Of a stretch of 49,544 nucleotides of DNA, positions 1,887-49,544 are shown piece by piece; position 1 is the stretch's first letter; every line of letters begins with the position of its first letter. The notes under the pieces are model-generated. The model saw only the letters and a list, made by a program, of their open reading frames with translations, searched no databases and was not told the DNA's origin. The translations under genes were made by a program, and so were the position numbers. The stretch spans positions 1 to 49,544 of the IMG/VR virus record IMGVR_UViG_3300028920_000776. One strand, given 5' to 3'. Origin of the DNA: a virus.

Positions 1887-2588
1887 ATGAGTATTTTAGT
1901 TTACATGCAATTACGAAACGAAGACAGATTTGCCAAAGCCGCATTAGCGTCCGTTCAAGACATCGCAGATGACGCACTTATTGTTTTTGATAGATGCGAA
2001 GATGAAACGCGTTCTATAATTGATCGTGAATTTCCCAACTACGAAAAAATAGTAACACTTGATGATGAAGAACTGTTAAGGGTTCGTAAGTCTCTTTTAC
2101 ATGACTTCGAAAATTACGAGTGGATACTTATGGTGAACGGTGATGAAGTCTACGATGAAAATATTCGAGACTTACCTGAATACTTAGCAGCGCGTCCGAT
2201 AGAAGATGTTACACACATAGTGGGACATACCGTGCACGTACTAAATGAAGACGGAACGTTATACACACCTTTCGATAAAACACATTTAGCACGTTCCACT
2301 ACAAAGTTAATACATAATTGGGCTATCGAAGACGGTGACAGCTTCAATCCATGGTTATTTCATAATTTAAAATATAAATTCGGAAGCGCGGTGTTTTTTG
2401 ATATACGACACAATATTCCTGTAATAGGATGTTTCACAGTGTACCATATGCACTTCTTAAATAGAAGCAGTGTAGATGCAAAAGTTATACGACGTGCATC
2501 ACCGAACGAACTCAACTATCCTATGTACATTTTAAATGGACAACAACCACTATTTCTACCCTTTTTAAAGAGAGATACAGATGAATAG
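1887..2588 (+). CDS. GT2-like glycosyltransferase (GT-A fold), single domain
   Basis: 233 residues. It opens with the GT2-style strand and loop (LVYMQLRNEDRF), followed by a nucleotide-binding-like segment ALIVFDRCEDET and an acidic metal-site candidate ILMVNGDEVYDE at about residues 80-92, in the place of the DxD motif. The C-terminal half is less typical. AAGGAG at 1876-1881 precedes ATG 1887. The arrangement resembles the second and third domains of the large glycosyltransferase encoded at 41972-44293. It might sugar-modify DNA, a virion protein or a host polymer; the substrate cannot be told. A non-catalytic GT-A-fold protein is the main alternative. Confidence 0.6.
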   Translation: MSILVYMQLRNEDRFAKAALASVQDIADDALIVFDRCEDETRSIIDREFPNYEKIVTLDDEELLRVRKSLLHDFENYEWILMVNGDEVYDENIRDLPEYLAARPIEDVTHIVGHTVHVLNEDGTLYTPFDKTHLARSTTKLIHNWAIEDGDSFNPWLFHNLKYKFGSAVFFDIRHNIPVIGCFTVYHMHFLNRSSVDAKVIRRASPNELNYPMYILNGQQPLFLPFLKRDTDE

Positions 2589-5468: not shown

Positions 5469-5479
5469 AGGTACGTACC

Positions 5480-15277: not shown

Positions 15278-15748
15278 ATGGGTAAGATTCCACCTATAAA
15301 AGTTCCTTTACACTTTGCCTTTCCTGAAATTGACATAAAATTTACTAAGTTACACCCTGACGCTATAGCACCTACGAAAGGTTATGTAGACGACGCGGCT
15401 TTTGATTTATATACATACCAAAAGCTTATAATACCTCCACATTCGATGATGCTTGTTAAAGTAGGTATTGCTGTAGAATGTCCCCCGTATATATGTTGGA
15501 CGTTACGTTCGCGCGGGTCAATGCATACGGGAGGTGTGTGGGTATATCCTGGAATGGGTGATCCTGGATATCGAGGTGACGTTGGCGTAAATGCCTGGAA
15601 TACAACTAACCATCCGTTAATATATAGTAAAGGTGAACGTATAGGTCAGATTCAATTTATGTTTCGCCCAACTATTAATCTTATAGAAGTAGAGACTATT
15701 GAAGAAAGCTCGCGTAATACAAAAGGATTCGGATCAACCGGACGTTGA
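15278..15748 (+). CDS. dut: dUTPase
   Basis: 156 residues, trimeric dUTPase type. The five motifs are visible: DAAFDLYT, RSRGSM, a metal/substrate loop GMGDPGYRGDVGVNAWN, GERIGQIQF and the C-terminal TKGFGSTG. It removes dUTP and supplies dUMP to the ThyX enzyme encoded four kilobases downstream in the same operon. Its last 50 bp overlap the start of the polymerase gene in another frame, so the two are probably translationally coupled. Confidence 0.95.
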   Translation: MGKIPPIKVPLHFAFPEIDIKFTKLHPDAIAPTKGYVDDAAFDLYTYQKLIIPPHSMMLVKVGIAVECPPYICWTLRSRGSMHTGGVWVYPGMGDPGYRGDVGVNAWNTTNHPLIYSKGERIGQIQFMFRPTINLIEVETIEESSRNTKGFGSTGR

Positions 15749-18125
15749 TCTTTACACTCTCAAAAAGTTTTGCTCCGAATGTGAGTACAACGGTAATCTC
15801 TCACTCCCCTCAGAAATAAGTTCGTACGCAAAAGTATTTTTAGTAGGAGAGGCTCCCGCACGTGAAGAGTTCGAAAAGGAACGAAACTTCGTAGGTGACT
15901 CAGGACATTTACTTACGCGGTATCTTAGAGAGATCGGGCATCACCGACGTGACGTTCATATAGGTAATATTATACGTTGTAAAATCCCAAGTAAGCTTTC
16001 CCGTACTGATAAAGACTCTTTAATAAAACGTTTATCCGCATGCTGTGGTCGTTACATATTAGACGACATTAAACGTGCGAAACCTACTATTGTTGTTCTG
16101 ATGGGGAAGCCTGCTATACACTTTTTTATAAAAGGGAGTCCTTCAGTTACAAAAGTACGCGGGCGTATTTTCTATTCTGAGCTCGCGCAGACACACATAA
16201 TATGTACATATCATCCTGCGGCGGTTATGCGCGACTGGACTTATGAGAAGTCGATTGTCCACGATCTCGAAAAAGCTTTTGCGTTTGTAGAGAACCCAAA
16301 CATCGAGGTAAAAGAACCTACGTATAAAATTGCACGTGGCTTAGAAGATTCATTACACATATGTGAATTTCTACGCAATCAAGATGAGATCGTATTTGAC
16401 GTAGAAACAGATTCATTGGATTGGTTAGATGGTGATATTTTAAGTTTCGGTTTTTCACACAAACCTTTTTCAGGTGTGACTATACCGTTTCGTTCTATAC
16501 ATAGTACGCCTTTAAACGCAAAGGAACGTACTAAGTTAGTTAATCATGGTATTAAACCCCTTCTCGAATGCCCTAATAAGAAGATAGGACACAATATATT
16601 ATTTGATTGTCATTGGGCAAAGAACTATGATATAACTGTCAACAATGTAACGTTTGACACTATGTTAGCACATCATCTCATCGATGAAAATTTTCCTTTA
16701 GATCTCGACACCCTCGCAGATTTTTATACTGACATGGGTACTTACGCAGACGAACTCTACGCGCATTTACCTAGTAAGAAGTCAAGTTATAATGTAGTAC
16801 CTGATGAAGTACTATGGATATATGGTGCTAAAGACTGTGACGCTGAATTTCGCTTAAAAACAATTTTCGACGAGAAACTCGATAAAGAAGGCGTCCGTTG
16901 GGTTTTTGACAATATTACTGTTCCCTTAATAGACGTCATTTTAGAAATCGAAAGACGTGGAGTCTATGTCGATAGAGATGGCTTCGAAGCTGCCGCGATA
17001 GAGGCGGGTGAAGAGCTTGACCGTCTAACGGAAGAGATGCGTACACATAGTGGTATGGGCGATGATTTTAATCCTAATTCAACGAAACAGTTACAAGATA
17101 TACTTTTCAACACATTAATATTAACACCTGTACGTGAAACGAAAACAGGTTATTCGACAGATGTTAAAACACTTGAAGCTTTAGAAGGACAACACGAGTT
17201 CGTCGATTTATTACAAACGTATCGTAAGTTAGCCAAATTTAAAGGTACCTATTTAGATGGTACGCGTGATGGTAAAGAAGCTGGTCTTATAAGGAGAATA
17301 CGCGAAGACGGGCGTATCCATACATCATACAAAATTCATGGTACAGGCACCGGACGGTTATCCTCAGCAGCTCCTAACTTGCAAAATATACCCCGTGGGG
17401 CTTTAATACGCGCATTATTCAAGGCGGCGCCCGGGTGTAAGTTTGTGATTGCCGACTTTGAACGCGGTGAAATGTTTACGTCAGCACATTTGAGTCGCGA
17501 CGTACAATTACAGAGAGCCTTACGTGAAGATATTCATCGGGCTTTAGCCGCGCGTATGTATAATAAAAAACGCGAAGACGTTACTAAAGAAGAACGTGTA
17601 GCTGCTAAGACCGTAATATTTGGTATTCAGTATGGTAGAGGTCCCGACTCACTTGCGAAACAGTTGAAAATATCACGCGCGGAAGCGATTCGTTATATTG
17701 TAGCCTTCTTCGATAGCTACACACAATTAGAAGCGTGGATAAAGCGACAACATGATCATGTGAGGAGGTACGGGTTCGTTCGGAATCTCTTCGGACGCAA
17801 AAGACACCTTTACGGAATATTTTCAGTACAAAATTCTTACACCCGTGGCGAGATATTACGCCAGGCACAAAATTCTCCTGTACAGGGTAGTCTAGCTGAT
17901 GCAGGGCATCTTGCGACTATTGAGTTAGTTAAACGTTTAAAAGAAGACTTCTCCGATGTCGATATAGGCGTTGTACTACTAGTACATGATGAGATAGTAT
18001 TAGAAGTTCCCGAGGCGTATGTTGAACCTGTAAAGGCATTATTAAAAGAAGTTTTCGAAAAGCCACGTAAGGGTTTACAAATACCCGTTGAAATACTCGT
18101 AGGAGATAACTGGAGTGCAAAATGA
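15699..18125 (+). CDS. Family-A DNA polymerase with N-terminal FeS uracil-DNA glycosylase domain
   Basis: 808 residues, three modules. Residues 20-195 are a family 4-like uracil-DNA glycosylase: C25-x2-C28, GEAPAREEFEKERNFVG, NIIRC (C94), C115/C116 and YHPAAVMR (171-178), so all iron-sulfur ligands appear present. About 225-420 is a DEDDy 3'-5' exonuclease (FDVETDS, GHNILFD, YGAKDCD). The rest is a PolA polymerase: motif A ADFERGEMF (variant of DYSQIELR), motif B AAKTVIFGIQYGRG, motif C LLVHDEIVLEVP. The start is TTG 15699, 50 bp inside dut; no later start keeps the glycosylase intact. SPO1-like phage polymerases also carry a UDG-like domain. It is the replicative polymerase of this phage. 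Confidence 0.9.
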   Translation: MKKARVIQKDSDQPDVDLYTLKKFCSECEYNGNLSLPSEISSYAKVFLVGEAPAREEFEKERNFVGDSGHLLTRYLREIGHHRRDVHIGNIIRCKIPSKLSRTDKDSLIKRLSACCGRYILDDIKRAKPTIVVLMGKPAIHFFIKGSPSVTKVRGRIFYSELAQTHIICTYHPAAVMRDWTYEKSIVHDLEKAFAFVENPNIEVKEPTYKIARGLEDSLHICEFLRNQDEIVFDVETDSLDWLDGDILSFGFSHKPFSGVTIPFRSIHSTPLNAKERTKLVNHGIKPLLECPNKKIGHNILFDCHWAKNYDITVNNVTFDTMLAHHLIDENFPLDLDTLADFYTDMGTYADELYAHLPSKKSSYNVVPDEVLWIYGAKDCDAEFRLKTIFDEKLDKEGVRWVFDNITVPLIDVILEIERRGVYVDRDGFEAAAIEAGEELDRLTEEMRTHSGMGDDFNPNSTKQLQDILFNTLILTPVRETKTGYSTDVKTLEALEGQHEFVDLLQTYRKLAKFKGTYLDGTRDGKEAGLIRRIREDGRIHTSYKIHGTGTGRLSSAAPNLQNIPRGALIRALFKAAPGCKFVIADFERGEMFTSAHLSRDVQLQRALREDIHRALAARMYNKKREDVTKEERVAAKTVIFGIQYGRGPDSLAKQLKISRAEAIRYIVAFFDSYTQLEAWIKRQHDHVRRYGFVRNLFGRKRHLYGIFSVQNSYTRGEILRQAQNSPVQGSLADAGHLATIELVKRLKEDFSDVDIGVVLLVHDEIVLEVPEAYVEPVKALLKEVFEKPRKGLQIPVEILVGDNWSAK

Positions 18126-18766: not shown

Positions 18767-19308
18767 AAAACATACGTATATGTTTTGTAGGGGCACACGG
18801 AACGGGTAAAACTACCCTTGCATTTGAAGTTCATAAGTATCTGTATAGAGAACTTCACGAAAAAGATGTCGTACTCATTTCGGAAAGTTCAGATGGCGCA
18901 AAAAAAGCTTTACATTTAGAAAAGAACGATCCTTCTTACGAAGAAGCATTAATACATTATCGTGCGAAGCTTTTTTATAGAACGCCGGAGTTCATTTCAG
19001 ATCGTTCATTATTTGATCCCTTGGGCTATTCGATAGTAAAAACCGGACAACTGTCTAGTGAACTGTTACAATACGCATTGGATGTACACAAAAAGTTAAA
19101 CCCTCTACTTTTTTATGTACCTATTGCGATACCTTTGGTAGGAGAATCTCATCGTCCTGCAAATGAAAAATACCAACAACACGTTGACGATTCTATAAAA
19201 GCCGTGCTCACAGGTGCTGGAGTACAGTATCATACTATTACACGTGTAGATTTGGTGAGTCGCTTGACTTATATAATTACAGTTTTAAGGAGACACATCG
19301 ATGAGTAA
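18763..19308 (+). CDS. P-loop kinase/ATPase of the NadR/AAA_28-like type
   Basis: 181 residues. P-loop GAHGTGKTT at 10-18, a DRSLFDPLGY segment that fits the DRS/DRx substrate-lid motif of deoxynucleoside and nucleotide kinases, and a C-terminal helical region. Proteins of this shape include NadR kinases and phage nucleotide kinases. It overlaps thyX by 4 bp and the DpdA-like gene by 8 bp, so a role in nucleotide or modified-base supply is likely, though the substrate cannot be read from the sequence. Confidence 0.75.
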   Translation: MKNIRICFVGAHGTGKTTLAFEVHKYLYRELHEKDVVLISESSDGAKKALHLEKNDPSYEEALIHYRAKLFYRTPEFISDRSLFDPLGYSIVKTGQLSSELLQYALDVHKKLNPLLFYVPIAIPLVGESHRPANEKYQQHVDDSIKAVLTGAGVQYHTITRVDLVSRLTYIITVLRRHIDE

Positions 19309-20146
19309 ACATACTGTTAAGATATTTCATACCGCACCGGTTGCGTTCATGCAGGTACTTGAACAGCACCAAGACTTTTTATTTATCGAAGCGCACGCCG
19401 CTCTCGAGAATAAGAAGTACGCAGATTATCTTGTAACACACAAAACGTTGAAACCCAACGTGTACGTAATAATGGACAATTCCGCATATCTGCTGGGTGG
19501 TCCTATGTCTGAAAAAGATTTTATGCGCGCGTACGAATATTTTATACCCGACTGTATTATCGCACTAGACCATCCATATAGTAGGAAAAAAACTCTCGAT
19601 GCTACAGAAAGTTTTGTTGCGCGATATAAAAAGCAAATCGATGCAAAGATTATGGCAGTCCCTCAGGGGGAAACTTACGCTGATTATATATCGTGTTTTT
19701 GGCGGTTATGCGAAAACCCCGACGTTGATGTAATCGGTGTTAATATGTTTATGGATTGGGAACATCCAGATATGTCGAAACTAGAAAAAACCGAACGCAT
19801 ATGCAGATATCGTAATATGATACTCTGGAACGCACACGACATCGTACGTATGGCTACTGAGAATAAACGTCTTCCGAAGTCTTTACATCTACTCGGTATT
19901 ACTTCGGGGCGAGAGTTAACATTTATACGCGATAATAATTTGTTTACTGTTAAATCGTGCGATAGCTCGTCCGCGTTCATTCACGGGTACTACGGTGTTA
20001 AATACGGTCCGAAGGGGTTAAAAGCAAAAGACTGGGATCATAAACTAGACTTCTCTATTAAGGAAGTTACCGATGAACAACGTAAGAATATCTTACATAA
20101 CATAAAGATTCTCAACAGGTTGAGAGGAGCTAATGTCACACTTTAA
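19301..20146 (+). CDS. dpdA: DpdA-like DNA-guanine transglycosylase (TGT superfamily)
   Basis: 281 residues with the motif order of tRNA-guanine transglycosylases: MDNSAY at 58-63 (D59 in place of the acid of TDSGG), CIIALDHPY (D90), AVPQGE (Q122-G123, as in VQGG), HLLGITSG at 196-203 and SCDSSSAFIHG with D221 in the position of the nucleophilic aspartate. The tRNA-binding zinc site of bacterial TGT (CxCxxC) is absent, as in phage DpdA proteins that act on DNA. It should insert preQ0 into phage DNA, and all four preQ0 genes are in this window. The fold and context are strong; the DNA substrate is inferred from known phage pathways. Confidence 0.85.
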   Translation: MSKHTVKIFHTAPVAFMQVLEQHQDFLFIEAHAALENKKYADYLVTHKTLKPNVYVIMDNSAYLLGGPMSEKDFMRAYEYFIPDCIIALDHPYSRKKTLDATESFVARYKKQIDAKIMAVPQGETYADYISCFWRLCENPDVDVIGVNMFMDWEHPDMSKLEKTERICRYRNMILWNAHDIVRMATENKRLPKSLHLLGITSGRELTFIRDNNLFTVKSCDSSSAFIHGYYGVKYGPKGLKAKDWDHKLDFSIKEVTDEQRKNILHNIKILNRLRGANVTL

Positions 20147-35388: not shown

Positions 35389-35760
35389 TCATGTTAATCC
35401 CACAGTAAATTGGTAATCAATATCACGTAAAATGTACCCACCTATATTATCGTCAGTCAGTTCAAGCCCATTAAGTTCTAAGTACGTATATGTACCATTA
35501 AAACTAGGAGCGCTACATATCTCAGATAACTGTGACAAAGGCATTGACTTTACAATAACCTTATCTCCCATTTGAAAGAACCTGGCTGCGTTTCCATATA
35601 CATAGCATTGCGAAACGGTAGTCCCCGCAGCTGTCAAAGATATTCCCGCTATCGATGTTATAGGTCCTGCGTACTTTGCATACAAGGAGGTACGGAATAC
35701 TGGCTGAGCACCTACCTCCTTTTTTGCTTCATTGATAAATAGTTTGCTTACTTGTTTCAT
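35389..35760 (-). CDS. Hypothetical tail protein after the tape measure
   Basis: 123 residues, not recognised. N-terminal helix (KQVSKLFINEAKKEV), then beta strands with small residues, ending ILRDIDYQFTVGLT. Its ATG overlaps the tape-measure stop by 4 bp, so it is coupled to it. Position suggests a distal tail or tail-adaptor protein, but this is context only. Its stop codon lies in a 15-nt palindrome. Confidence 0.52.
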   Translation of the reverse strand: MKQVSKLFINEAKKEVGAQPVFRTSLYAKYAGPITSIAGISLTAAGTTVSQCYVYGNAARFFQMGDKVIVKSMPLSQLSEICSAPSFNGTYTYLELNGLELTDDNIGGYILRDIDYQFTVGLT

Positions 35761-38700
35761 ACGATGTCATCATCCGTTACATTACGCAAAGTAGCTATAT
35801 GGCGTCTCTTCGCAGGTAGTACGTGTTGCTTATATACATCATCCCAGGCTTCTCTACTATCGATCATCGAAGGACCTTGTATAACAAATGTATCTTGGAA
35901 GTTATACTCTTTCTTGCCCCCCGCGCCACCCAAAGCATTTTGTGCAAGCGGGTGACTTAACGGTACAATTGCTTCAGGGCCTGCCTCGCCTACCATACCT
36001 AAGAGAGGCTTAGTAACAATTCCGCCCTCAGCAAACTCAGATACCGAAGCTATCAAAGCCGCAACAGCGGCGACAGCTACTGCGATGGCTGCTAAGTTGT
36101 ATGGAAATGGCAACCCTGATGCGCTTTTGACAGCGCCTACCTCTGCGGCGGCCGTATCAGCAGCGATCTGTGTAGTAGCTGTTGCTACGGATTGTGCCGC
36201 CATCTTTAGTTGGTTTGCAAGCCATTCGGCAAGCATTTCCGCAAGGAGCTTAATCCAAAACTTCTTCATATAGTCCCAGATAGTTGTAAAGAACTTCTGG
36301 AAGCCCTTCATATTCTCTTTTCGTTGGTCATTATACTGTTTATCAAGTTCTGAGACTTCTGCGTAATAACGCGCCGCGGATATTTTTCCTTCAACAAACT
36401 GGTCGCGTAAATCACGTTTCTGGTCTTCCATACGCAAGCGTACTAATTCCCAGTTCGTATCATCCTTTTCAAGTAAATCCTCGAACAAATCCTCGAGTGC
36501 GTTGGAGAGCTCCCTACGTATTTCAGTTGCCACATCTTTAACAATTTCTTTAAATGTACGTACTTGTGACTCGGTAATTAATTTCAGTGCATTATATACA
36601 CGTCTCCAAACATCTGTATACTTAGCCCCCGCAGCCTCGATTTCGCTTAGTAATTCTTGTAGGGCCGCTCGGCGCTGTTCGGCGGAAACATCCTCCATAT
36701 TACGTATATCTTTAAACGCACGTTCCCACGCTTTAATCATAGGTTGCAAACGTTTATACTCCGCCCACTCTTCCATAGTCATATTAGCCGCGATGCGGTC
36801 CTTAAGATCTTCAAATGTATCTACCGCGTTTTGTTTTTCTAGTTCGGGTATGAGTAGCATCTCACGCCAAACTTTTTGTGCGGCGGGTGGTAGCTTTTCT
36901 AAACGCTTTGTTATCTCGTCCGCAAGTTTTTTAAACTCAGCGCGCAGATCCTCGGTTACTTCAGGTTTTAATGTAAGAGCGTTTGCCATGACCTCTTGAA
37001 GTTCTGTCGCTTGCCGTACGAGGTCGTCTGGAAAATCCCCATACGCACCTTCAATAGAATCTTTCACGCCCTCCCATAGATCTTTAATCTTACCACTATC
37101 TATATCTAGTACGCCTTCATCAACAAGTTGACGGATCTTAATAAATGCCTCAAGTACTTCGTTTGCCTTTTTCTTTAAAAGTCCTAGAGGCTCCTCTCCA
37201 AGCTCATGTAAAGCATTAATAGCCTCCGTAGAAGTATTAGTAACCGTCTCCGCCAATGCTTCAAACTCTGCGGGTACTTCGCCGAACGCCATACGAATTT
37301 TTTCTACGACATCTTCCCAAGCCTTTTCGATGATATCTGCTGATACTTGAGATTCTTTCGGGAGCTTAGCATTTTCCTGACTCACCGTCAATAACGCCTC
37401 AGCAGCCTTGCGGGCTTCATCTTGAAGCTGAGATGGAATCTTAACATCAAGGGTACTAAGACCCTGTACCATCTCTAAAGTATATCCAGTCATCTTCTCA
37501 GTGATTTCGCGGTACTTCTCTGGTATCTGTCCGAATGCGTCCATCAACTTAGGTACGAACCCATCTATCCAGATGTCGCGAAGTTTATCAGCGGAATACC
37601 CGCCATCCTTCCAAATAGTATTGAATGCCCAATCAGCTTCTTTTGCTATGTCTTCTAAATGCTGAGGCATATCCATACCCAAGATATTAAAGGCTGCTCT
37701 TAATCGTGCAGTGGTTGCACGTGCCTTATTGAACGCATCTGTCATTTCCTTCATCTTCTTACGTACGGCATCCGATATGCTCGCAGTTTCAAGTAGCTCC
37801 TTAGACAACTCGGTAATACGGTCTTTCAGTCTACCTGATATTGTATTATTATCGTGGAGAGCTTCATACATACCTACTAACTTCGCACGATTCTCATCTG
37901 TTAAATGTGCCCCGCGGGCTATTTGCTCTAATAAATCCGACCATGATGCAGCATATTGATCATTTTTGTATTTATTCGAAGCTAAATCATTTGAAAGATC
38001 GTTCATGCGTGCCTGCATTGCAGGTGTGAACTCCGTAACTTCACGCGCTGCATCGACAATCCCAAGAAGACCCTCTTTTGTTTCTTCTGAATACACAGGA
38101 GTAACTTTTAAAGATTCCGCGAGGTCGTCAAGACCTTTCTTCACCTCGGCTGTAAGAGGCGCACCTTTCTGTAATGCTTCGATTACAGCTTTCCACCTGT
38201 CTTGCAAGTCGTCAGTAGGTTTAACCGTATTATCTATAGACTCAGTTAGGGCTTGTAACCCCGCCGACAGTGTCTTTGCGTCGGATAGCTCTGACCAATT
38301 TTCACGAAGTAACCCGACTATACGTAATAACTTCGTAATCTTATCCCCAAGCCAACTTATCCACTTCCCAACATCTTTAATACCAAAAGATCCGGCAGAG
38401 AGTACTCGTATAAAGAGATCAATACCGCGTGTGACCGCTCTAAATTTTTTCTGTAGGTAAATTAACCCGCGTATAAGTATATAAATACTAGCAGCTACGG
38501 CTCCTACTAAAAGCATCTTACCTACCAAAACCCCTGCCGCGATTCCCAAAGCGCTCAATGCAGCTACTGTGACCAGTATAGCGCCAGTTAGGCCAGCAGC
38601 GACGAGACCAATGGCCGCAAGAGACCCTGCGAATTGCGCAAATCCTGGCGCGACTTTACGCATTGCCCCCATTATTGAGTTTATTGCCTCTACAATTTTT

Positions 38701-39803
38701 CGCGCGGTTGCTAAAAACGGTAACGCGCCTTGTATACGTAGTGCATTAAAGTTCTGTTTCAATCTGTCTAGTGAAAATGACAAAGCTTTTGCTTGTTTTT
38801 CAAATGCTATTTGAGTTTCCCCGGCGGCGTTAAGCATTACATTATAATCTTTTGTGAATCCTGTCACCTGCTGGATAAGAGCATTAACACCACGAAGCGC
38901 TCTCATCTGTCTAAACATTGATCCAACTTGTTCAGGAAGTATATCGCTAAGTTTTTCCATCACTGATACAAGACCTTCTGTCTGAAGCGTGGTCAAATCT
39001 AAATTAAGACCTAACCTTGCAGCGGCTTTAATCGCATCTTCAGTGGGACGGAAAAACTGTAATAGTGTCTGGTTAATAGATGTAATCGCAACGCCTGTAT
39101 CCAGCCCTGCACGAGTCATTGTAGTAATAGCGGCCATAAGCTCTTCAAAGCTTACTCCCGCAGCTGCAGCGGTAGCGGCAGCTCTACCAATTACAGGCGT
39201 TAGTTCCGCAAACGTGGTAACACCCCGTCTGATCGTTGCAAAGAATATATCAGATATTTTAGCGGCTTGGTCGAAGGCCATATTATATGACATAAGTACT
39301 GAAATTATCGCCTTCGTTGCAGTTGCAGTAGAAGTCAGCCCTGCGCGTGCAGCACGCATTGCAACCGTTAAAACATTTATCGCATCAGACGCGGGAATGG
39401 TTGCTGACAGAATATCATACAAACCTTTTGTTGTAGCGGCGGTTGTTTCACCAAACTCGGCCGACAAATTTATGACATTCTGTGTAAATGTCTTAACCCA
39501 TTTATTTACATAAGAATATGACTCACCCGCCCTATCGCGTAACAGAGTCGCAACGTTCGCCATCTCTTTTTGTAGTTCGATAGCGGGGCCTAAACTCTTT
39601 GCTATAGCGCGTGTTCCTATCGCAAACGTCGCGAGCAGCCCAGCCCCGGCTACAGCAAGCTTGCCCATTTTAGTTTGCAGTAACTCAATCGCAGCGCCGC
39701 CAATCTTAGAAAATGTAAGCAGCGTCATCTTCGCAAGTTTGAAATTGCGAATGAAGTTCCAGATCTCAGCGACGAGCTTAACTTTTAATATACCAAGAGC
39801 CAT
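35757..39803 (-). CDS. Tape measure protein
   Basis: 1348 residues, which sets tail length and crosses the host envelope during DNA injection. N-terminal TP901-type region (TAATTKGLYDILSATIPASDAINVLTVAMRAARAG), long coiled coils, a membrane-like stretch near 395-455 (AAGLTGAILVTVAALSALG, then LLVGAVAASIYILIRGLIYL), a repeated helical middle, and the typical C-terminus GEAGPEAIVPLSHPL. Length suggests a tail of about 200 nm by the usual 0.15 nm per residue rule. It shares its first base region with the tail-chaperone frame at 39803. Confidence 0.92.
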   Translation of the reverse strand: MALGILKVKLVAEIWNFIRNFKLAKMTLLTFSKIGGAAIELLQTKMGKLAVAGAGLLATFAIGTRAIAKSLGPAIELQKEMANVATLLRDRAGESYSYVNKWVKTFTQNVINLSAEFGETTAATTKGLYDILSATIPASDAINVLTVAMRAARAGLTSTATATKAIISVLMSYNMAFDQAAKISDIFFATIRRGVTTFAELTPVIGRAAATAAAAGVSFEELMAAITTMTRAGLDTGVAITSINQTLLQFFRPTEDAIKAAARLGLNLDLTTLQTEGLVSVMEKLSDILPEQVGSMFRQMRALRGVNALIQQVTGFTKDYNVMLNAAGETQIAFEKQAKALSFSLDRLKQNFNALRIQGALPFLATARKIVEAINSIMGAMRKVAPGFAQFAGSLAAIGLVAAGLTGAILVTVAALSALGIAAGVLVGKMLLVGAVAASIYILIRGLIYLQKKFRAVTRGIDLFIRVLSAGSFGIKDVGKWISWLGDKITKLLRIVGLLRENWSELSDAKTLSAGLQALTESIDNTVKPTDDLQDRWKAVIEALQKGAPLTAEVKKGLDDLAESLKVTPVYSEETKEGLLGIVDAAREVTEFTPAMQARMNDLSNDLASNKYKNDQYAASWSDLLEQIARGAHLTDENRAKLVGMYEALHDNNTISGRLKDRITELSKELLETASISDAVRKKMKEMTDAFNKARATTARLRAAFNILGMDMPQHLEDIAKEADWAFNTIWKDGGYSADKLRDIWIDGFVPKLMDAFGQIPEKYREITEKMTGYTLEMVQGLSTLDVKIPSQLQDEARKAAEALLTVSQENAKLPKESQVSADIIEKAWEDVVEKIRMAFGEVPAEFEALAETVTNTSTEAINALHELGEEPLGLLKKKANEVLEAFIKIRQLVDEGVLDIDSGKIKDLWEGVKDSIEGAYGDFPDDLVRQATELQEVMANALTLKPEVTEDLRAEFKKLADEITKRLEKLPPAAQKVWREMLLIPELEKQNAVDTFEDLKDRIAANMTMEEWAEYKRLQPMIKAWERAFKDIRNMEDVSAEQRRAALQELLSEIEAAGAKYTDVWRRVYNALKLITESQVRTFKEIVKDVATEIRRELSNALEDLFEDLLEKDDTNWELVRLRMEDQKRDLRDQFVEGKISAARYYAEVSELDKQYNDQRKENMKGFQKFFTTIWDYMKKFWIKLLAEMLAEWLANQLKMAAQSVATATTQIAADTAAAEVGAVKSASGLPFPYNLAAIAVAVAAVAALIASVSEFAEGGIVTKPLLGMVGEAGPEAIVPLSHPLAQNALGGAGGKKEYNFQDTFVIQGPSMIDSREAWDDVYKQHVLPAKRRHIATLRNVTDDDIV

Positions 39804-40625: not shown

Positions 40626-41174
40626 TTACGCCTTCTCGTATACTAGTTTGATCAGCCGCTTGTTTGCTGCAACAGCTGCTCCGGTCCAGTCCGTAGTGGA
40701 CTCGACCGCGTTGAATGACATCGGGAACTCGTGCGCACCTTCTGCAAAGGTAACTTCGAAGCCAGCTCCGGCCTCAGCTTTCCAGAGATAGACAGAGATC
40801 GTATGTCCTGCGGGAGTTACGTGCACGAAACGCAACGCGTACTGGTCGATATCCATAGATCCACCAAACTCAAACGTTTCGAGGCTCGCATCGGATGAGG
40901 TAACGCCGCCGCCGGTTGAGAGCGACAGGTTACGCACATTCCACTCCATACCCGTGACATCGAGAGTTACTGATTCCTGAATGGCAAACTTCTTTACCAC
41001 GGTTGAAGGAGATCCCTGTCTGAACTCAAGGATCTCTCGCGTGATCGCAAGTTTTGCACCTACAGTGACAGCACCTACGTCGATAGACGGTGTAGAACCT
41101 GTGGGGCCCATATACAGGATTCCAGGTCCGAACGAGAATCGGTCGGTGTCATACGAAGGAACGTTAAACGCCAT
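40626..41174 (-). CDS. Major tail tube protein
   Basis: 182 residues. Beta-rich with the tail-tube pattern: glycine-rich start, FGPGILYMGPTG, KLAITREILEFRQGSPSTVV (beta hairpin plus loop), ESVTLDVTGMEWN, and a final FPMSFNAVESTTDW. A very strong ribosome site (AAAGGAGGTGAG) precedes the ATG, as expected for the most abundant tail protein. Flanked by connector-type genes and the chaperone gene. Confidence 0.8.
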   Translation of the reverse strand: MAFNVPSYDTDRFSFGPGILYMGPTGSTPSIDVGAVTVGAKLAITREILEFRQGSPSTVVKKFAIQESVTLDVTGMEWNVRNLSLSTGGGVTSSDASLETFEFGGSMDIDQYALRFVHVTPAGHTISVYLWKAEAGAGFEVTFAEGAHEFPMSFNAVESTTDWTGAAVAANKRLIKLVYEKA

Positions 41175-41496: not shown

Positions 41497-41985
41497 TTAT
41501 GCCTCCTTATCACCAGCTTCAACTAAAGCTTTATGTGCTTCGTTAAATATCTCGTTGACGTGTTTTTTACATTGATTGTATGTACCCGTAACGAAGTCAC
41601 GTGCAACCATTTTAGATGTACCGAATATAATATAGCGCGCGTGAGGTGCCTTACTCTCGTTAACACCTACCTCGGCTTCGTGGGACTTTTCAGGATCAGA
41701 CACCGTTGTTTTTTCTATAGCACTCAACAATACACCTTCTTGAGTATGTACTAACCAATTAGGTACGTGTAGAGCTATTGGATGTGACTTTGCGTACGGC
41801 CCTCCAAGAAGACGAAGTTCTTGTATACTATGACACGTTAAACTTACATTTTCACGCATACGTTTGTATACATGATCTTGTGATTTCTTAGCCGCCTTTT
41901 TGAAGAGCTTATCAGCATTTTTCTCCGCATTACCAAACGCGATTAAGATCTCCGCCAGCCCATATACATGTTTAAGACCTTTCAT
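41497..41985 (-). CDS. HK97 gp10-like tail completion protein
   Basis: 162 residues. Helical N-terminus, then the segment HARYIIFGTSKMVARDFVTGTY, which corresponds to the conserved E-x-GT-x-x-x-x-P-F region of HK97 gp10-type proteins (here D-F replaces P-F). These join head and tail or finish the tail tube. It overlaps the glycosyltransferase gene by 14 bp and is followed directly by the zinc-ribbon gene. Confidence 0.72.
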   Translation of the reverse strand: MKGLKHVYGLAEILIAFGNAEKNADKLFKKAAKKSQDHVYKRMRENVSLTCHSIQELRLLGGPYAKSHPIALHVPNWLVHTQEGVLLSAIEKTTVSDPEKSHEAEVGVNESKAPHARYIIFGTSKMVARDFVTGTYNQCKKHVNEIFNEAHKALVEAGDKEA

Positions 41986-44293
41986 GTCTCCGTGATCCTA
42001 CTTTAATATCTTGTTCCCCTATAACACTTGTAATACTATTCAAAAGTCTATCGAGCATGTGATGTAGCGGATGATCGTTCGGAAGCAACTGTTTTGAATT
42101 TGTCAACCACGCTTGTCCTTGTCTGAGATACAAAAGTCCCAGCTCTTTATGCGCTTGATAGAAATTCGCGTTTAATGATATAGCATACTTGAGCAAACGC
42201 GTAGCCTCATTAAAGTTACCTTCATTTACATAATGAAGCGCAAGATTATATGGAGCTCGTGGGTCTTGCGGGTGCTCTTGCATCTGCATTTTATTTAAGC
42301 GTTCATACAGTGCAAGTTTTTTGTCCATGTATAAATCATCACCGAGGAACCCGTAGTGATGTAAAATAAGCTCAGTACGTAAAATACGTACTTTACCTTC
42401 ATGCATACTTACATCGAAGTTTTCATGGACACGACCTGTGTAACGCATTTCGGGGATATTACGGAAGAGCCTTATAGCTTCTGACAAAGATACCTGCCCG
42501 CCTTTTTGATGATTATATACAGGAAACATGTATCCGTCACAGTCATTATCCATCATGCGCCTAAGAGATGGAATACGCTTGTGTTCGAATTCTTCATCCC
42601 AATCCATAAGCAGAATCCACTTCTCAGTTGCTTTCTCTATGACTTCATTCTTTAATTTACTGAAATCATCGTTGAATTTCACGGGAATTATTTTTGCATT
42701 AAAACGTTCTGCGGTGCGTACAGAATCATCCGTACCTTCGTTGTCCCCGTATATAATCTCATCGACAAAGTACCCAATTTGATCGAGGAGTTCCCACAAT
42801 TTATGTCCACCATTCTTCACAGTCATTACAAGAGACAATCCATCGTCTTCGAACCATGGGTACGTAATCATCTTATCTTGAACGAGGTGCGAGTAATCTT
42901 CTTGGCCGATAAGTCCCGGCGATTTTTCTGTATCGATGGACTCATAAAACTTATACTTACGTGCGCACTTTTCACGTGAACAATATCCGTAATGCTTAAT
43001 ACGTACGTTCGTCCAACGCCCACATTCCGGGGGATGCAAGGGTATATTACCGCAGTGTAACCCAATATCCGTACCATAGTTGATACGTCTATTTGGTTCA
43101 ATTTTGTACATCCGATATCCACTCATTTTTCCAAAGGTACCATCTATCCGGAAGCGTTCCGTTCCGTTAAAAAATGTACGCCAATTAAACCCATACATTT
43201 TTACATGTGGATTAGGTGGATGCATCAAACGTTCGACGTATGCACGATCAAACTTATCTTCGAATACTTCGTCATCGTCAATAGAAATCGCCCAGTCTGC
43301 ACCGGACTCTTCCGCCATTATGACTAGCTGATTTCTATCACGACGCTCGTCAAATTCTCTGTTGGTTTTTTCGATGCGTGTAACTTTCAAAAAACGTTTT
43401 GCGATCTCTTCGGATTTGTCGTTCTCATCGGGGTTATCAATCAACACAACTATTTCGTCACAGAACGTTGAAGCCTTTTCTAAGCTTTGCGCGAAGTATT
43501 CATCAGGGCCTTTAACACGATACATACCTACAAGCTTTTTTGTACCTTCGTTTCTACTGACCCACTTATCTAGGAACTTATTGCGCGGAGAAAGTCCTCC
43601 TTCAGCCTTCGCAAATTCCGGGCGACGAAACGTTTTCGAACCGTGATGATGTACAAATGTAGAGCCGTCGATCATACCATACCAACCCTTTTCATTCGCA
43701 CGTAGTAAATAATCGTTGTCCTCATAGCCACCGGGGAAAAAACCTTCTTCGAGAAGTCCTACGTCATCGATAACGGCGCGCTTTATCATCAAACAAAAAC
43801 CTGATAAAAATCCTGCTTCATCAAGCTGTGTCAAATACTTCCTATGGAACTCTGCTGAGAATTGGTCAAGGCGCGTTAATTCATATTTTACGCCTGGTAC
43901 GTTTTGCCTTCCACCGGCGTAGTTGGTCGCTGGGCCGACTAAACCTATGCGTTTACCCGACTGCTTCGTGTATCTGCGCATCGCGGTAAACATTTGAGAC
44001 AGCCAGTTTGGTGTTACAAGGGCGTCGTTGTTCAGAAGAACAATAAATTCCCCGGTCGCATTTTTTATACCATAGTTACACGCCGCACCGAAACCTTTAT
44101 TCTCTTCCAAACGTATGTAAGTGATATTATCGTGTTTGTGTAGCAGCTCGTTAATATACCCCTCAGTACCGTCGTCACTAGCGTTGTCTACGATGATAAC
44201 TTCGAAGTCTTGTGTGTGCTCAAACACGCGCGGGAGAGATTCAGAGAGTAGTTGTAGCCCGTTTACTGTCGGAATAATAATACTGTACTTCAT
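41972..44293 (-). CDS. Three-domain GT2 glycosyltransferase with TPR tail
   Basis: 773 residues. Domain 1 (1-250) is a complete GT2 enzyme: SIIIPTVNG, VDNASDDGTEGY, ENKGFGAACNYG and VLLNNDAL near 84-92 with acceptor-loop GGYEDNDYLLR. Domain 2 (about 255-480) has ISIDDDEVFE near 336. Domain 3 (about 490-680) has VMTVKNGGHK and LMDWDEEFE near 560. TPR-like repeats (APYNLALHYVNEGNFNEATRLLKYAI) follow. It sits inside the tail operon, with strong AGGAGG before the ATG, so it probably glycosylates a virion protein made at the same time. Sugar and target are unknown. Confidence 0.82.
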   Translation of the reverse strand: MKYSIIIPTVNGLQLLSESLPRVFEHTQDFEVIIVDNASDDGTEGYINELLHKHDNITYIRLEENKGFGAACNYGIKNATGEFIVLLNNDALVTPNWLSQMFTAMRRYTKQSGKRIGLVGPATNYAGGRQNVPGVKYELTRLDQFSAEFHRKYLTQLDEAGFLSGFCLMIKRAVIDDVGLLEEGFFPGGYEDNDYLLRANEKGWYGMIDGSTFVHHHGSKTFRRPEFAKAEGGLSPRNKFLDKWVSRNEGTKKLVGMYRVKGPDEYFAQSLEKASTFCDEIVVLIDNPDENDKSEEIAKRFLKVTRIEKTNREFDERRDRNQLVIMAEESGADWAISIDDDEVFEDKFDRAYVERLMHPPNPHVKMYGFNWRTFFNGTERFRIDGTFGKMSGYRMYKIEPNRRINYGTDIGLHCGNIPLHPPECGRWTNVRIKHYGYCSREKCARKYKFYESIDTEKSPGLIGQEDYSHLVQDKMITYPWFEDDGLSLVMTVKNGGHKLWELLDQIGYFVDEIIYGDNEGTDDSVRTAERFNAKIIPVKFNDDFSKLKNEVIEKATEKWILLMDWDEEFEHKRIPSLRRMMDNDCDGYMFPVYNHQKGGQVSLSEAIRLFRNIPEMRYTGRVHENFDVSMHEGKVRILRTELILHHYGFLGDDLYMDKKLALYERLNKMQMQEHPQDPRAPYNLALHYVNEGNFNEATRLLKYAISLNANFYQAHKELGLLYLRQGQAWLTNSKQLLPNDHPLHHMLDRLLNSITSVIGEQDIKVGSRRHERS

Positions 44294-44304: not shown

Positions 44305-44895
44305 TTAGGATTCTAATCGTGTGACTATTGATTCATAATGATGTATTGTCGATGCCCCGTATACAGGGTGCAGGTCGGCCTCTAATTTGTAAACGATGCT
44401 TCCGTCGGTTAAATAATCACCCTTCTGCAACGCCGAGTCGGCGGCACGACACATAAGCTTAAGAGGTTGCTCTTGCACTGCTCCGACTTCATGTACGAAT
44501 GCATCGGGGTTATGTCCATAAATCCTTCCATAAATAGTACCCTGTGTACGTCTTGTATTTAGTAGTTCGCCAGATCGCAAAGCACCTTTGATTGAAAAAT
44601 TACCTCCTGTAAATCCTGCGGTTGTTATACCTGTTATAGTTTTGAATAGATACTGACTTATACGTGTGTCATCCTGTGTAAAAATAAAGTGCTCAGAAAT
44701 AACGGAATCGTTTGCATCAGTACCTGTAATTAAACAATCACCGAAGACAGAACCTCCCGAAAGTTCTAACTGCAAAACACAAGGTTCTGAAGGTTGATAC
44801 GTTACAGACACAGTTGTAGCAATAACTGTTTCTGTCACCAGATACGCACTATCTCGTGCGTACGTAATTGCACGCATCAATGAATTGAAACTCAT
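44305..44895 (-). CDS. Hypothetical structural protein
   Basis: 196 residues, not recognised. Beta-rich with alternating Thr/Gly strands (TVIATTVSVTYQPSEPCVLQLELSGGSV, ISEHFIFTQDDTRIS) and a final helical part. It starts exactly where the connector-like gene ends and precedes the glycosyltransferase gene. A head or neck decoration protein is possible from position. Confidence 0.52.
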   Translation of the reverse strand: MSFNSLMRAITYARDSAYLVTETVIATTVSVTYQPSEPCVLQLELSGGSVFGDCLITGTDANDSVISEHFIFTQDDTRISQYLFKTITGITTAGFTGGNFSIKGALRSGELLNTRRTQGTIYGRIYGHNPDAFVHEVGAVQEQPLKLMCRAADSALQKGDYLTDGSIVYKLEADLHPVYGASTIHHYESIVTRLES

Positions 44896-45461
44896 TAGAA
44901 TACCTTTTTATATTTTGTCAAGATTGCCATCGCAATATTATCAAGACCGTTCATAATAGTCTCTTCGGAAGTTTTGTACGAGTAATCACCTGCTTTTTCT
45001 TGTTCATACACAACGCCGGGTAATGAGTGTATGGTATACCCGACTTTGTAGATCAGGTATTGCAGATCCCGAGGGGCCTCCCCCTCGGCGTATCCGGCTT
45101 GATATAATAAGAGTATTGCATCTCGACCAATTTCAAAGTAGTCATCGTCGGCGCGTAGTTTAATTACACCGGTGTCATAGTCAATTATAAGATCGGAGTT
45201 TTCAATGAGAGTAGAACCGTTCGTAAGCATCAATGACCCGAGAACTACGGGATATTCTTCTGTGGTAATCTGCCAGCGCCGTGTATCAAAGTCTTCGATT
45301 GTCTGTGTTTCGTTTTTCCAATGAAGTGCAAACGTTCTTTTACACATACTATCTACACGTGCTTCAGCTAATTCCGTAATCAACGAAATATCTGCACTCG
45401 ACATAGTCTGCCCGGCTGCAGATAAGAACTGTTGGAATTGTGCGCTTGTTAAAATACTCAT
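44895..45461 (-). CDS. Head-tail connector-like protein
   Basis: 188 residues from ATG at 45461. The helical core with VVLGSLMLTNGSTLIENSDLIIDYDTGVIKLR is like the adaptor (gp6) family: an N-terminal helix bundle (QFQQFLSAAGQTMSSADISLITELAEARVDSM), a beta hairpin, and final helices (PRDLQYLIYKVGYTIHSL). It overlaps the preceding gene's stop by one base. The usual role is to close the portal and bind the tail. Confidence 0.65.
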   Translation of the reverse strand: MSILTSAQFQQFLSAAGQTMSSADISLITELAEARVDSMCKRTFALHWKNETQTIEDFDTRRWQITTEEYPVVLGSLMLTNGSTLIENSDLIIDYDTGVIKLRADDDYFEIGRDAILLLYQAGYAEGEAPRDLQYLIYKVGYTIHSLPGVVYEQEKAGDYSYKTSEETIMNGLDNIAMAILTKYKKVF

Positions 45462-48241
45462 TATTCTACTCCTAATACGGACTGTATGTTCTCGACTTTT
45501 ATTACTGAAGCTGGAGAAGACACACCATGAATTGAATGTGACCATCCCGTAGCTCCTGCTGTGCCCATTACTGAATAGCTGTAAGCCCATCCATCTGCAT
45601 CTGCATCAATACGCCCTACAGTTATGAAGTAGTGTATATCGTCTGTTTTTCCAATATATATGTTATCGGAGTTAGCGTTTGAAAAAGCAACGGTAGACCC
45701 CTCAGATAAAATAGATTCTGTTATTGTTCCAGCAGCACTAATTACATACGCTGCAAAGTTCCCCGCATTATCTGCGAAGCAATGTATAGTATCTTCTATG
45801 CAATAAACCCCTTCTGGCATCGGCGTATAATTCGCTTCTGTGTCCCATGAATCCGTAACGGAGCTTCCAATAGAACCATCTGAATCATCTGCTTCGAATG
45901 TTGCAATTACTAAATCTGTGTCTGTTATATACTCTTTATAATGAACAACGTACATATCATCACCAGCTTTAGTAAGGGCACAATACTCAGTTACATTTCC
46001 AGAGTCTACGACTAAAGAGTCCACATTTCCATCACAACTACCGTCGCTCACATCTATTTCTGTTGTTTTAACCTCCAAATCATTTCCGCTTGTTCTATAT
46101 GCTAATAGGAAATAGTCTGAACTTCCTAAACGCACAACGTCTGTCCAACCGTTTAGTTCTCCAGCTTCGAAAGTCCATGAGTCTACTTTCGCTATTGTTC
46201 CATCGGTAGCTACGCTAAAGGTTTCTAGTACGCCTAAGTTTGACGAGTTTTCATAAATTATACCATAGTAAATACCGCCAACGTGAAATACTCTTAGAAA
46301 TTGTGTTGTTGAACTTCCATTGACAAAATCCTGTATGTCTAATACACCAGTTGCTGTTATGTCGCCATCAGTAGTGTCTATCTCAATAGTTCTAACATCA
46401 AGTTCTGCGTTAACTTCTACAGATGCAATAATAAGTATATTTTCCCCCTGTCGCCAAACAGCATCCATGCCATGATATAACATATAAGTTGAAGCGTGTA
46501 CTTCCCATTCCTCTGTTAGTGCGGCTGCCATTTCTCCAGTTGTATTACATTCAAATGTGGCTAAGTTTAAATCGTTTCCACTGTCCATATATGGGACTGC
46601 ATAATAATTTCCGGTAACACCGCACCTTTCTATTCTCGCTAAATAGTTTACTTGATTTGTATTAAACTCCACTGCGTCTATCGCTTCTATAAAGTCTCCC
46701 GATGTATAAGTTATGATTTGAAGTTTTGTAGCATCGTCTGAGTCTGAATCCCATTGCACGAAGCTTCTATATTCATTTGAAGCAGGTAAACTTGTTTCTG
46801 TATTGGCTATTAAGAATATCATATCTTGATTAGATGCCCAACCGCCTCTTCCAGTTATCTCATCTATAATACTTTTTATGTTTGGTGACTCATACCAAAC
46901 ATCCCAGGACCATGACTCTGTAGGAATCCATTGAACAGAAGCAGTAGTTTTTGCACCCCACGCATCTCCATAGATTGTATGCCCCGAACTAAATTCAGCA
47001 GCATCATCTACGTCCTCTCCCCATATAGTTATGTCTAATGTACCACTGTTCGATGGTGCATTAACAACCAAAACAGCTTTGTCAAAGTTGGTTGATGCGT
47101 CAACTGGCACGGTTTGAAATCTATATCCCCAAGTATAAAAGTTAGATGTACTTGCTCCAACATTTGCTTGATAAGCATAAGTAAGATTTTGGTCATCTCC
47201 GGGATGTGGGTCGCCCCAAGTGTGTCCATCATCAGCACTTGCACCAACTTGTTCTTCTGTTATATCCGCATCCATATAAACTGGATAAACCGTAGCAGAA
47301 TGATTTAAAGCGGTTGCTGGAACACTAAACAATCCAAATATATAAGTTCCTACCCTTCTTATCTGCCAATCGACATCAATATAATGTGTGCTGTCTGCGC
47401 TATCCCATGCTCTAGGTTTTTGCATCCACCATACATTACGAAGTAATTCGTCTCTAAAATTAAATTTTTCTGAGTTGTTTAACTGTTCATCGAAGGCATC
47501 TATATTAGTAATTTCAGACAAATCAGAAGTTGTAATCCCAGAAGCAAAACCATTTCCAACCTCAGCCTGTCCATGCCATGAAAGAGCTATCACTAATACT
47601 AATTTCAACCCAGAAACTGGAATGGTAGGTGTTGGCAAGTCGGTTTTATCATCTATGACGAGTGTTTTGAAAAACTCGTCGGGCTTTAAGTTGTATCTAA
47701 AATGTATTCCGTTTCCGAACACGTCTTCCCACGTTACAGTATAGGAGTTATTGTCAATCGTTGGAGCACCGACAGCTTGAGTAGCAGATATTAACTGTTT
47801 CTGATTAGCTTCATTAACCCACATTAAAGCAAGTGGTGCCATACCAATCCATCTATTCGCACGTCTATACTGTGCAATATAACGTATTGTTTTTCCACTT
47901 ATTTCTCTCGACTGCCAGAACCTGACTTGATAACCATTAGTTTCACAAGCGGCATCCCAATTTTCAAGAGGCGTAAGACTTATTGTTAAATCAATTTCTT
48001 TATATTGTTCACTTTCAGAAAAAGGGTCTACCTTATAATGAATAGGACCGACTTGACCGATGATTCTGCGTTTTCCAGAGTCTCCTATCTTAAATTGTTT
48101 GAAACTCCTTGTTCTACCATCAACCAGTTCCACTTCGTTTTCTGCAGGTATATAAAGACCTGAACCATCTCTTTGTACGAGTGTTTGTGTAAAAGAACTA
48201 CTTATGAATAAAAGAATACATAAGAAAATTAGTCGCTTCAA
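45461..48241 (-). CDS. Secreted-type beta-propeller protein inside the structural block
   Basis: 926 residues. The N-terminus (MKRLIFLCILLFISSSFTQ) is a Sec-type signal peptide, rare for a virion gene. The second half has repeated blades (NLATFECNTTGEM, VRTIEIDTTDGDI, VKTTEIDVSDGSC, VIATFEADDSDGSI) typical of a beta-propeller; the first 400 residues are unassigned. The start is TTG with AAGGAG 6 nt upstream. Codon use differs from neighbours to the left. It may be a surface or virion protein acquired recently, or an envelope protein. Position between a fibre-like gene and a connector is odd. Confidence 0.68.
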   Translation of the reverse strand: MKRLIFLCILLFISSSFTQTLVQRDGSGLYIPAENEVELVDGRTRSFKQFKIGDSGKRRIIGQVGPIHYKVDPFSESEQYKEIDLTISLTPLENWDAACETNGYQVRFWQSREISGKTIRYIAQYRRANRWIGMAPLALMWVNEANQKQLISATQAVGAPTIDNNSYTVTWEDVFGNGIHFRYNLKPDEFFKTLVIDDKTDLPTPTIPVSGLKLVLVIALSWHGQAEVGNGFASGITTSDLSEITNIDAFDEQLNNSEKFNFRDELLRNVWWMQKPRAWDSADSTHYIDVDWQIRRVGTYIFGLFSVPATALNHSATVYPVYMDADITEEQVGASADDGHTWGDPHPGDDQNLTYAYQANVGASTSNFYTWGYRFQTVPVDASTNFDKAVLVVNAPSNSGTLDITIWGEDVDDAAEFSSGHTIYGDAWGAKTTASVQWIPTESWSWDVWYESPNIKSIIDEITGRGGWASNQDMIFLIANTETSLPASNEYRSFVQWDSDSDDATKLQIITYTSGDFIEAIDAVEFNTNQVNYLARIERCGVTGNYYAVPYMDSGNDLNLATFECNTTGEMAAALTEEWEVHASTYMLYHGMDAVWRQGENILIIASVEVNAELDVRTIEIDTTDGDITATGVLDIQDFVNGSSTTQFLRVFHVGGIYYGIIYENSSNLGVLETFSVATDGTIAKVDSWTFEAGELNGWTDVVRLGSSDYFLLAYRTSGNDLEVKTTEIDVSDGSCDGNVDSLVVDSGNVTEYCALTKAGDDMYVVHYKEYITDTDLVIATFEADDSDGSIGSSVTDSWDTEANYTPMPEGVYCIEDTIHCFADNAGNFAAYVISAAGTITESILSEGSTVAFSNANSDNIYIGKTDDIHYFITVGRIDADADGWAYSYSVMGTAGATGWSHSIHGVSSPASVIKVENIQSVLGVE

Positions 48242-48251: not shown

Positions 48252-49544
48252 TTATTCTGCTATTTTAACTGGTACTGGAGCGGGAAATATGAATATAACA
48301 TCTGCGGTTATAGCTACGCCAATTGCATAGACAAATTCTCCCGCAGTTGATGGCGCTGTCGCAGATATTATACCAGCAGTAGTACTCACAAATAGATAGT
48401 CCCCCGCTGTAAAGTCCCATCCGTCATCGTCTCTGATATAAGAACCTCCCTGTGCTACCAACGCAGATTCCCCGTCATTAACTGTTCTTGTATCCACACT
48501 TACCCACAATGCCGGACTATTTTCAACATCATCGTCTTCTGCAAGCATAAGTTCGCCATCTGTGTGCATAAACAAAACTTCTCCAAAGTCCACATCTTCA
48601 CCAACAGCTAATCTGACAGCAGTTCCGCTAAAAGTACTGTCTGCGTCGGGCGAAGCGTCTAGTTTTAACCACTTCCCAATAGTAACGCTGTCTGATAGTG
48701 TAGTTGCAAGCGTAACAGTTAGGTCTTCTGTAATAGATAAATCTTTCGCAATAGAAACATTACCGCTTGAACCTTCTACTGTAAGAGCCCCATCTACTCC
48801 AGCGGATAGTTTAATATCAATGTCTCCGTCGTCCCCGAGTTCGATATAATCCTGTGTGGTTTCATACATGGTAAGCATAATTTCATTTCCGGCCAGGATT
48901 TTTATTTGGTCGGTGTCAAACTGGATTTCCGTATCAGTATCGCTCTGGTGAGTGATATCATCTGCAACGTGAATGTCATTGGAAAAAGTAACTGCGTCGA
49001 GATTCTGGAAGTCAATTTGGTCATTTGTGTTGATTTTCATAAGACCGTTATCATTATCACTTGCAACAAAATTAATCTGACCGGAAGTTCCGCCGTTTGT
49101 GCCTATTGTTATTGTCGAAGCAAATGTTGGAGCCGTACCAAACACGAGTAATCCAGTACCAGTTTCATCATCCATAAGAGCAAGCAACTCACTAGAAGCG
49201 TCGATTTCAGTTTCCAGAAGTATATTGACATCACCCCAAACTGTTTCTACTTCGCCTTCAGTATTCCATTCCTCATCTCTTGTAATAGCCGCTTCGATAG
49301 CGATGTTAATTTCAGTATTAGGATCTTCTGTCACAGCAAAATCTGCATCGGCAAAGTCTAATGTTACTATGTCTGCATCACCTACACCAGCATCGCCCTG
49401 TTCAACAGTTGACATAGTTCCGGAAAGCGCATTTATTTGGTCTTGTATTGAGGAGGTAACACCATCAACATACAACAGTTCCGCCGCAGTTAGATCTCCT
49501 GAATCACTTATACCATCTATAATATTCAGGTCTGCAGTAGAAGC
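48252..49544 (-). CDS. Tail-fibre-like protein, 5' end cut by window edge
   Basis: The open frame continues beyond the right edge, so the TTG at 49475 is internal. The visible 431 residues begin with a phage-fibre repeat (LNIIDGISDSGDLTAAELLYVDGVTSSIQDQINAL), go through a Thr/Asp-rich beta region (TITIGTNGGTSGQINFVASDNDNG, then DITHQSDTDTEIQFDTD), and end in a compact C-terminal part. Such repeats occur in tail fibres and other trimeric phage surface proteins. It precedes the propeller gene by 10 bp. Confidence 0.7.
   Translation of the reverse strand, partial: ASTADLNIIDGISDSGDLTAAELLYVDGVTSSIQDQINALSGTMSTVEQGDAGVGDADIVTLDFADADFAVTEDPNTEINIAIEAAITRDEEWNTEGEVETVWGDVNILLETEIDASSELLALMDDETGTGLLVFGTAPTFASTITIGTNGGTSGQINFVASDNDNGLMKINTNDQIDFQNLDAVTFSNDIHVADDITHQSDTDTEIQFDTDQIKILAGNEIMLTMYETTQDYIELGDDGDIDIKLSAGVDGALTVEGSSGNVSIAKDLSITEDLTVTLATTLSDSVTIGKWLKLDASPDADSTFSGTAVRLAVGEDVDFGEVLFMHTDGELMLAEDDDVENSPALWVSVDTRTVNDGESALVAQGGSYIRDDDGWDFTAGDYLFVSTTAGIISATAPSTAGEFVYAIGVAITADVIFIFPAPVPVKIAE

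Follow-up and report, generated by a model that had tools for sequence, protein, structure and literature searches.

Gene organization of the virion operon

The window analysed here is a stretch of viral DNA of 49,544 nucleotides (IMG/VR record IMGVR_UViG_3300028920_000776). Its head-tail operon encodes a protein with three GT2-type glycosyltransferase (GT) domains followed by C-terminal TPR-like helices, named GT3-TPR here (Table 1). The presence of GT genes inside the structural operon, by which virion glycosylation loci of tailed phages are recognised, is thus found at this locus. The ATG of GT3-TPR is preceded by a good Shine-Dalgarno sequence (AAGGAGG) and its stop overlaps the start of Neck1 by 14 nt; a scan for promoters and terminators revealed nothing exceeding chance. 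An earlier note on this DNA had placed the gene between head-tail genes. This is well founded for Neck1 and the tape measure protein, whereas the upstream connector is assigned from its position and a reading of its sequence, with no match in the Pfam and PHROGs libraries. The 196-aa protein encoded between this connector candidate and GT3-TPR has no family match, and for the putative major tail protein no relative was found among phages. The second GT that the same note had proposed near the start of the window is plausible, but its Pfam match is sub-threshold (PF13704, 20.3 bits versus a cut-off of 27.5; phrog_13126, 2.4e-6), it contains NGDE where DxDE is expected, and no relative was found in IMG/VR.

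Among the widely conserved neighbours tallied, the 196-aa protein has the highest Ser/Thr content (S+T family mean, 20.5%). None of the virion proteins contains a mucin-like stretch, and therefore the acceptor is not evident; the Ser/Thr content of the virion proteins likewise singles out no acceptor.

Table 1. Coordinates of GT3-TPR, its domains and the genes considered with it.
Feature	Position	Strand	Extent, motifs and evidence
GT3-TPR, three GT2 domains and C-terminal TPR	41972..44293	-	773 aa; ORF, Pfam, AlphaFold, fold search
GT3-TPR domain 1, GT-A	43559..44293	-	aa 1-245; PF00535 E 3.9e-32; fold; motif alignment; NND (88-90), ED (191-192), HHG
GT3-TPR domain 2, GT-A	42848..43558	-	aa 246-482; Pfam 3.1e-6; own model; fold; DERRDRN, DDDE (339-342), HYGY
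GT3-TPR domain 3, GT-A	42329..42844	-	aa 484-655; PF00535 1.5e-14; GmaR/SunS/ThuS matches; DWDE (564-567), VHE (622-624), HYGF
C-terminal TPR-like helices	42020..42328	-	aa 656-758; weak Pfam TPR; model helices; ThuS/SunS alignment
Tail completion/Neck1	41497..41985	-	phrog_5, 3.1e-9
Conserved neighbour, candidate head-closure protein	44305..44895	-	196 aa; orthologues adjoin GT3-TPR in most relatives
Putative head-tail connector	44895..45590	-	Position and sequence reading; orthologue retained in relatives
Putative major tail protein, Ig-domain family	40626..41174	-	phrog_2175, 1.8e-11; role from position
Tape measure protein	35757..39803	-	phrog_991, 4.5e-43; PF10145
Single-domain GT2-like protein (NGDE motif)	1887..2588	+	Outside virion operon; sub-threshold matches

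Domain architecture and structural relatives of GT3-TPR

Three separate stretches of GT3-TPR match Pfam Glycos_transf_2 (43760-44284, 43121-43459 and 42494-42835; E 2.4e-49 for the whole protein), and the AlphaFold model (18 aligned sequences) reaches a pLDDT of 89.6 and a pTM of 0.88. By sequence, domain 2 gives the weakest match (22.2 bits versus the Pfam cut-off of 23.3), but it adopts a GT-A fold when modelled by itself (pLDDT 92). Pfam, the model and the GT-A fold searches agree with the three GT domains that the earlier note had recognised, and structure prediction, which it had suggested as a check, returns a GT-A fold for each of them. The acidic motifs lie where they had been placed (N88-N89-D90, D339-D340-D341-E342 and D564-W565-D566-E567). 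The combination of a GT-A fold and a DxD-type metal motif, which defines GT2/GT-A enzymes, is seen in sequence, models and motif conservation. A lack of sugar-nucleotide pockets in domains 2 and 3, which had been named as a finding that would speak against the idea, is not observed so far as sequence and fold tell. The TPR part is borne out by helices at residues 653-758 of the model, a region that lies inside the structural alignment with SunS and ThuS, but it is weak by sequence, since the matches to TPR_19, TPR_16 and TPR_11 each fall under their own Pfam cut-off. Inspection of sequence and model by eye noticed no membrane segment.

Together with the C-terminal helices, domain 3 is closest in structure to ThuS (Z 21.9, 3.7 Å, 254 residues), followed by SunS (Z 21.2, 5.6 Å, 289 residues). 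Its top solved relative by sequence is GmaR (22ao, 2.4e-14), and SunS and ThuS were also matched. Because ThuS (Z 17.6) and SunS (Z 16.8) are also the best structural matches of domain 2, for which the next family reaches 14.6, domains 2 and 3 belong to the same kind. Domain 1 represents the general GT2 kind, with the fucosyltransferase WrtF and the GalNAc transferases that act on polypeptides as its nearest structures (Z about 20-21); its fold entry is VIA (Z about 20.9), and it matches the GtrB-like phrog_841. By best structural match, GT3-TPR belongs to the SunS/ThuS/GmaR-like fold group, in which a GT-A domain is combined with a C-terminal helical part. Membership in the SunS equivalog family (TIGR04195) was rejected: the protein scores 47.5 bits over aa 490-712 versus a curated cut-off of 350, so that the acceptor atom cannot be read from that family.

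The TPR part had earlier been taken as a pointer to O-GlcNAc-type enzymes, an assignment that gives way here to the SunS/ThuS/GmaR kind (GT2 with a C-terminal helical/TPR part), as indicated by both fold and sequence. O-GlcNAc transferase (GT41) is a GT-B enzyme with N-terminal TPRs, and GT3-TPR is not of this type, because its TPRs are C-terminal and all three of its domains are GT-A.

Conservation across the phage lineage

A sister contig in IMG/VR shares 12.9 kb with the window at 99.95% identity and continues beyond the window end. With its capsid protein as anchor, 63 loci were collected. GT3-TPR lies between the connector and Neck1 in 16/18 capsid-anchored loci that span the interval from capsid to Neck1, a count that contains some near-duplicates and uses a capsid profile built partly from GT-positive contigs. 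This location in the same slot across the lineage supports the virion-operon position claimed earlier. The two exceptions (L119 and L120) look like one phage, and the initial impression that L119 lacks the gene was dismissed, as its 241-kb contig holds a full 762-aa three-GT2 copy elsewhere (E 1.9e-208). The comparison with phages lacking the gene, which the earlier note had recommended, therefore found no such phage among the relatives that could be judged. Pairwise GT3-TPR distances follow those of the MCP (r 0.91), the connector (0.87) and the 196-aa neighbour (0.92). GT3-TPR is a syntenic core gene, co-inherited over the long term with virion genes, in a lineage of uncultured tailed phages that are all known from metagenomic contigs alone.

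Homologues were recovered through profile searches. In single-sequence searches, the sole match in IMG/VR is the sister contig (100%) and genome_contigs contains no GT3-TPR match; INPHARED phages contain single GT domains only, none of which covers 80% of the query. An alignment of 18 proteins, in which the homologues share about 28-73% of their residues with the window protein, showed that D339-x-D341-E342 and D564-x-D566-E567 are invariant and that N88 and D90 of the domain 1 NxD motif are nearly so. Between close pairs, dN/dS is about 0.1-0.27 in each domain; when the window is compared with its nearest relative, synonymous substitutions have reached saturation. This shows that GT3-TPR is under purifying selection, and motif invariance and low dN/dS together indicate that the pattern is not due to chance and that no domain of the window protein looks dead. 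Domain 1 is decayed in L053 (RDH replaces NND; ED and HHG are gone) and replaced in L105; both proteins retain domains 2 and 3 and the TPR part. Thus, three catalytic steps are not universal in the lineage.

Glycan cassettes and bacterial relatives

The sister contig contains a second cassette between portal and protease, consisting of a GT9-like gene, an RGP-family protein (PF03214, 1.8e-48), the related GT-like pair GT528 and GT232, and a B12-radical SAM protein. The GT9-like and GT-like labels are our own sequence readings; for the GT9-like gene and GT528, searches of Pfam, PHROGs, NCBIfam and PDB sequences gave nothing useful. This cassette is retained in relatives with an 83% identical capsid protein. 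In L123/L146, whose trimodular protein has a decayed domain 1, the interval from the connector to GT3-TPR encodes a protein with two GT2 domains (a possible substitute for the decayed one), methyltransferases, a GDP-mannose-dehydratase-like epimerase, other GTs and a UDP-glucose dehydrogenase. A separate 531-aa protein with two GT2 domains adjoins the connector in the L052/L053 phages, and L097 contains radical SAM proteins and a GT2-cytidylyltransferase fusion downstream of the connector.

Several further genes were observed. The marine relatives carry, between portal and protease, a gene that we read as PAPS-reductase-like (L013:1509-2402, L019:7449-8357) and that could belong to sulfur or sulfation chemistry. 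A caspase-domain protein (PF00656, 7e-24) is encoded in the packaging/head operon of the sister contig, in the terminase-portal interval (L009:3032-3877). Another phage has a group of three closely spaced single GT2 genes that precede terminase and portal (L055:7983-10837), possibly an unfused form of the same set.

In bacteria of the Firmicutes, GT2-TPR genes resembling domain 3 adjoin two flagellin genes in Clostridium (L057) and Thr-rich repeat proteins, one of them with the Pfam domain DUF6385, in Paenibacillus, Aneurinibacillus, Desulforamulus and Carboxydocella. A single full-length chromosomal homologue with three GT domains and TPRs (37%) was found, in Sulfidibacter corallicola (L056/L147), where it comes after vgrG, a Tox-PAAR-like gene and a gene that we read as metallopeptidase-like. 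The T6SS sheath genes of this species are located far from the homologue, and no phage structural genes are present near it.

Comparison with known glycosylation systems

The resemblance to SunS and ThuS comprises the fold of domain 3 with the C-terminal helices (Z 21-22), the fold of domain 2 (Z 17-18) and the DxD motif. Those enzymes have one GT domain each and modify small glycocin peptides, whereas the window protein has three GT domains and is encoded in a virion operon. With GmaR and other GT2-TPR flagellin glycosyltransferases, GT3-TPR shares the aligned DxDE, HE and HYG motifs of domain 3, the C-terminal TPRs and relatives encoded beside flagellin genes; the window, however, contains no flagellin and the chain carries two further GT domains. 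The chondroitin (K4CP) and heparosan (PmHS2) synthases, which are top Foldseek matches, also use several GT-A domains per chain on one glycan, but these polymerases have two domains and lack both a SunS-like domain and TPRs. GT41 and FlmG combine TPRs with a GT that acts on proteins and differ in their GT-B fold and N-terminal TPRs (so described for FlmG in PMC7591256). TPR parts bind flagellin and provide acceptor specificity in FlmG (PMC7591256) and Maf-1 (PMC13317340).

Among phages, a parallel comes from mycobacteriophages. Corndog has three GTs, along with an O-methyltransferase, in its portal-protease interval (PMC4351075), within the structural operon and in the very slot occupied by the second cassette of the sister contig. 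Glycans on mycobacteriophage capsids and tail tubes are attributed to Freeman 2023 in the citing passages of PMC12619734 and PMC11256854. In Corndog and Che8 these are separate GT genes of particular phages, in contrast to the single trimodular enzyme described here, which is syntenic lineage-wide.

Proposed function of GT3-TPR

We consider it likely that GT3-TPR is a conserved virion-protein glycosyltransferase, in which domain 3 may prime and domains 2 and 1 may extend, although high confidence extends only to the glycosylation of virion proteins. The particles of this lineage probably carry a short sugar chain that the phages assemble themselves. GT3-TPR would be a cytoplasmic, virus-encoded protein glycosyltransferase, made at the same time as the proteins of head and tail. 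The TPR-like helices at its C-terminus may grip a virion protein, while domain 3, being of the SunS/ThuS/GmaR kind, would place the first sugar on a Ser, Thr or Cys side chain. The SunS-like domain 2 and domain 1, which resembles rhamnosyl-, fucosyl- and GalNAc-transferases, could then extend this sugar to a di- or trisaccharide core. The extra GTs, methyltransferases and nucleotide-sugar enzymes of individual phages would decorate the core, yielding a phage-specific virion glycan.

Virion proteins could also be modified without a three-step chain, if only one or two of the domains catalyse transfer and the others serve to hold the acceptor or work at different sites. This explanation, which overlaps with the preferred one, is a possibility of lesser weight: it accommodates the decay or replacement of domain 1 in L053 and L105 with retention of the remaining parts, but all three motif sets are present in nearly all members, and the extra protein with two GT2 domains in the L052/L053 phages may supply the step lost with the decayed domain 1.

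Many phage GTs, for example those of the GtrB type, alter the host O-antigen. GT3-TPR could accordingly modify the host cell surface, e.g. to block superinfection, with its operon position merely setting late expression, and the phrog_841 match of domain 1 fits such a role. We regard it as improbable, since no membrane segment was noticed by eye, the protein ends in TPR helices like protein-modifying GTs, and the gene is co-inherited with virion genes (r about 0.9). Moreover, relatives should frequently differ by loss or exchange of a gene that alters the surface, yet GT3-TPR is present in every spanning contig followed up. Glycosylation of modified DNA bases appears highly improbable. Viruses are known to possess GTs that target DNA, as PMC12619734 states in citing Pyle 2024, and the 7-deazaguanine pathway is represented in the window by QueC, FolE2 and a QueE-like radical SAM protein. 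However, QueC is absent from GT3-TPR contigs of 61, 76, 92 and 117 kb (possibly fragments), which speaks against a link to 7-deazaguanine DNA; GT3-TPR lies in the virion operon, apart from the DNA-modification genes, and peptides are the substrates of the closest relatives with solved structures.

A more far-reaching version of virion-protein glycosylation, in which it is obligatory and assembly-coupled throughout the lineage, with the enzyme, as a true core gene product, placing a conserved glycan core on a connector or tail protein and being co-opted in bacteria for a T6SS spike or effector, is a speculative and rather unlikely extension. Mycobacteriophages provide known cases of glycosylated virions, and the GTs involved are genes of particular phages. 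Here, a trimodular enzyme encoded amid exchangeable glycan cassettes appears to be near-universal and co-inherited with the capsid in a wide range of uncultured phages. If the proposal is true, virion glycans would be a built-in trait of the lineage, with relevance to receptor binding as well as to the immunogenicity of phages. A single polypeptide able both to start and to lengthen a protein glycan would then be a useful enzyme.

Other genes in the window

The 7-deazaguanine set occupies positions 4980-6208, 13427-15222 and 19301-20146 and includes, in addition to QueC, FolE2 and the QueE-like protein, a gene that we read as QueD-like; the protein at 19301-20146 has no family match and is possibly TGT/DpdA-like. 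A fibre-like gene with repeats at the window end (49119-49544) is cut by a probable assembly break, and its 159-bp repeat (93% identical) has two further copies in the sister contig G001. A putative metal-chelating protein with a CxxCxxCC motif (PF03692) is encoded at 1298-1816, and a DNA polymerase A with an N-terminal uracil-DNA-glycosylase domain (PF03167, exonuclease and PF00476) at 15699-18125.
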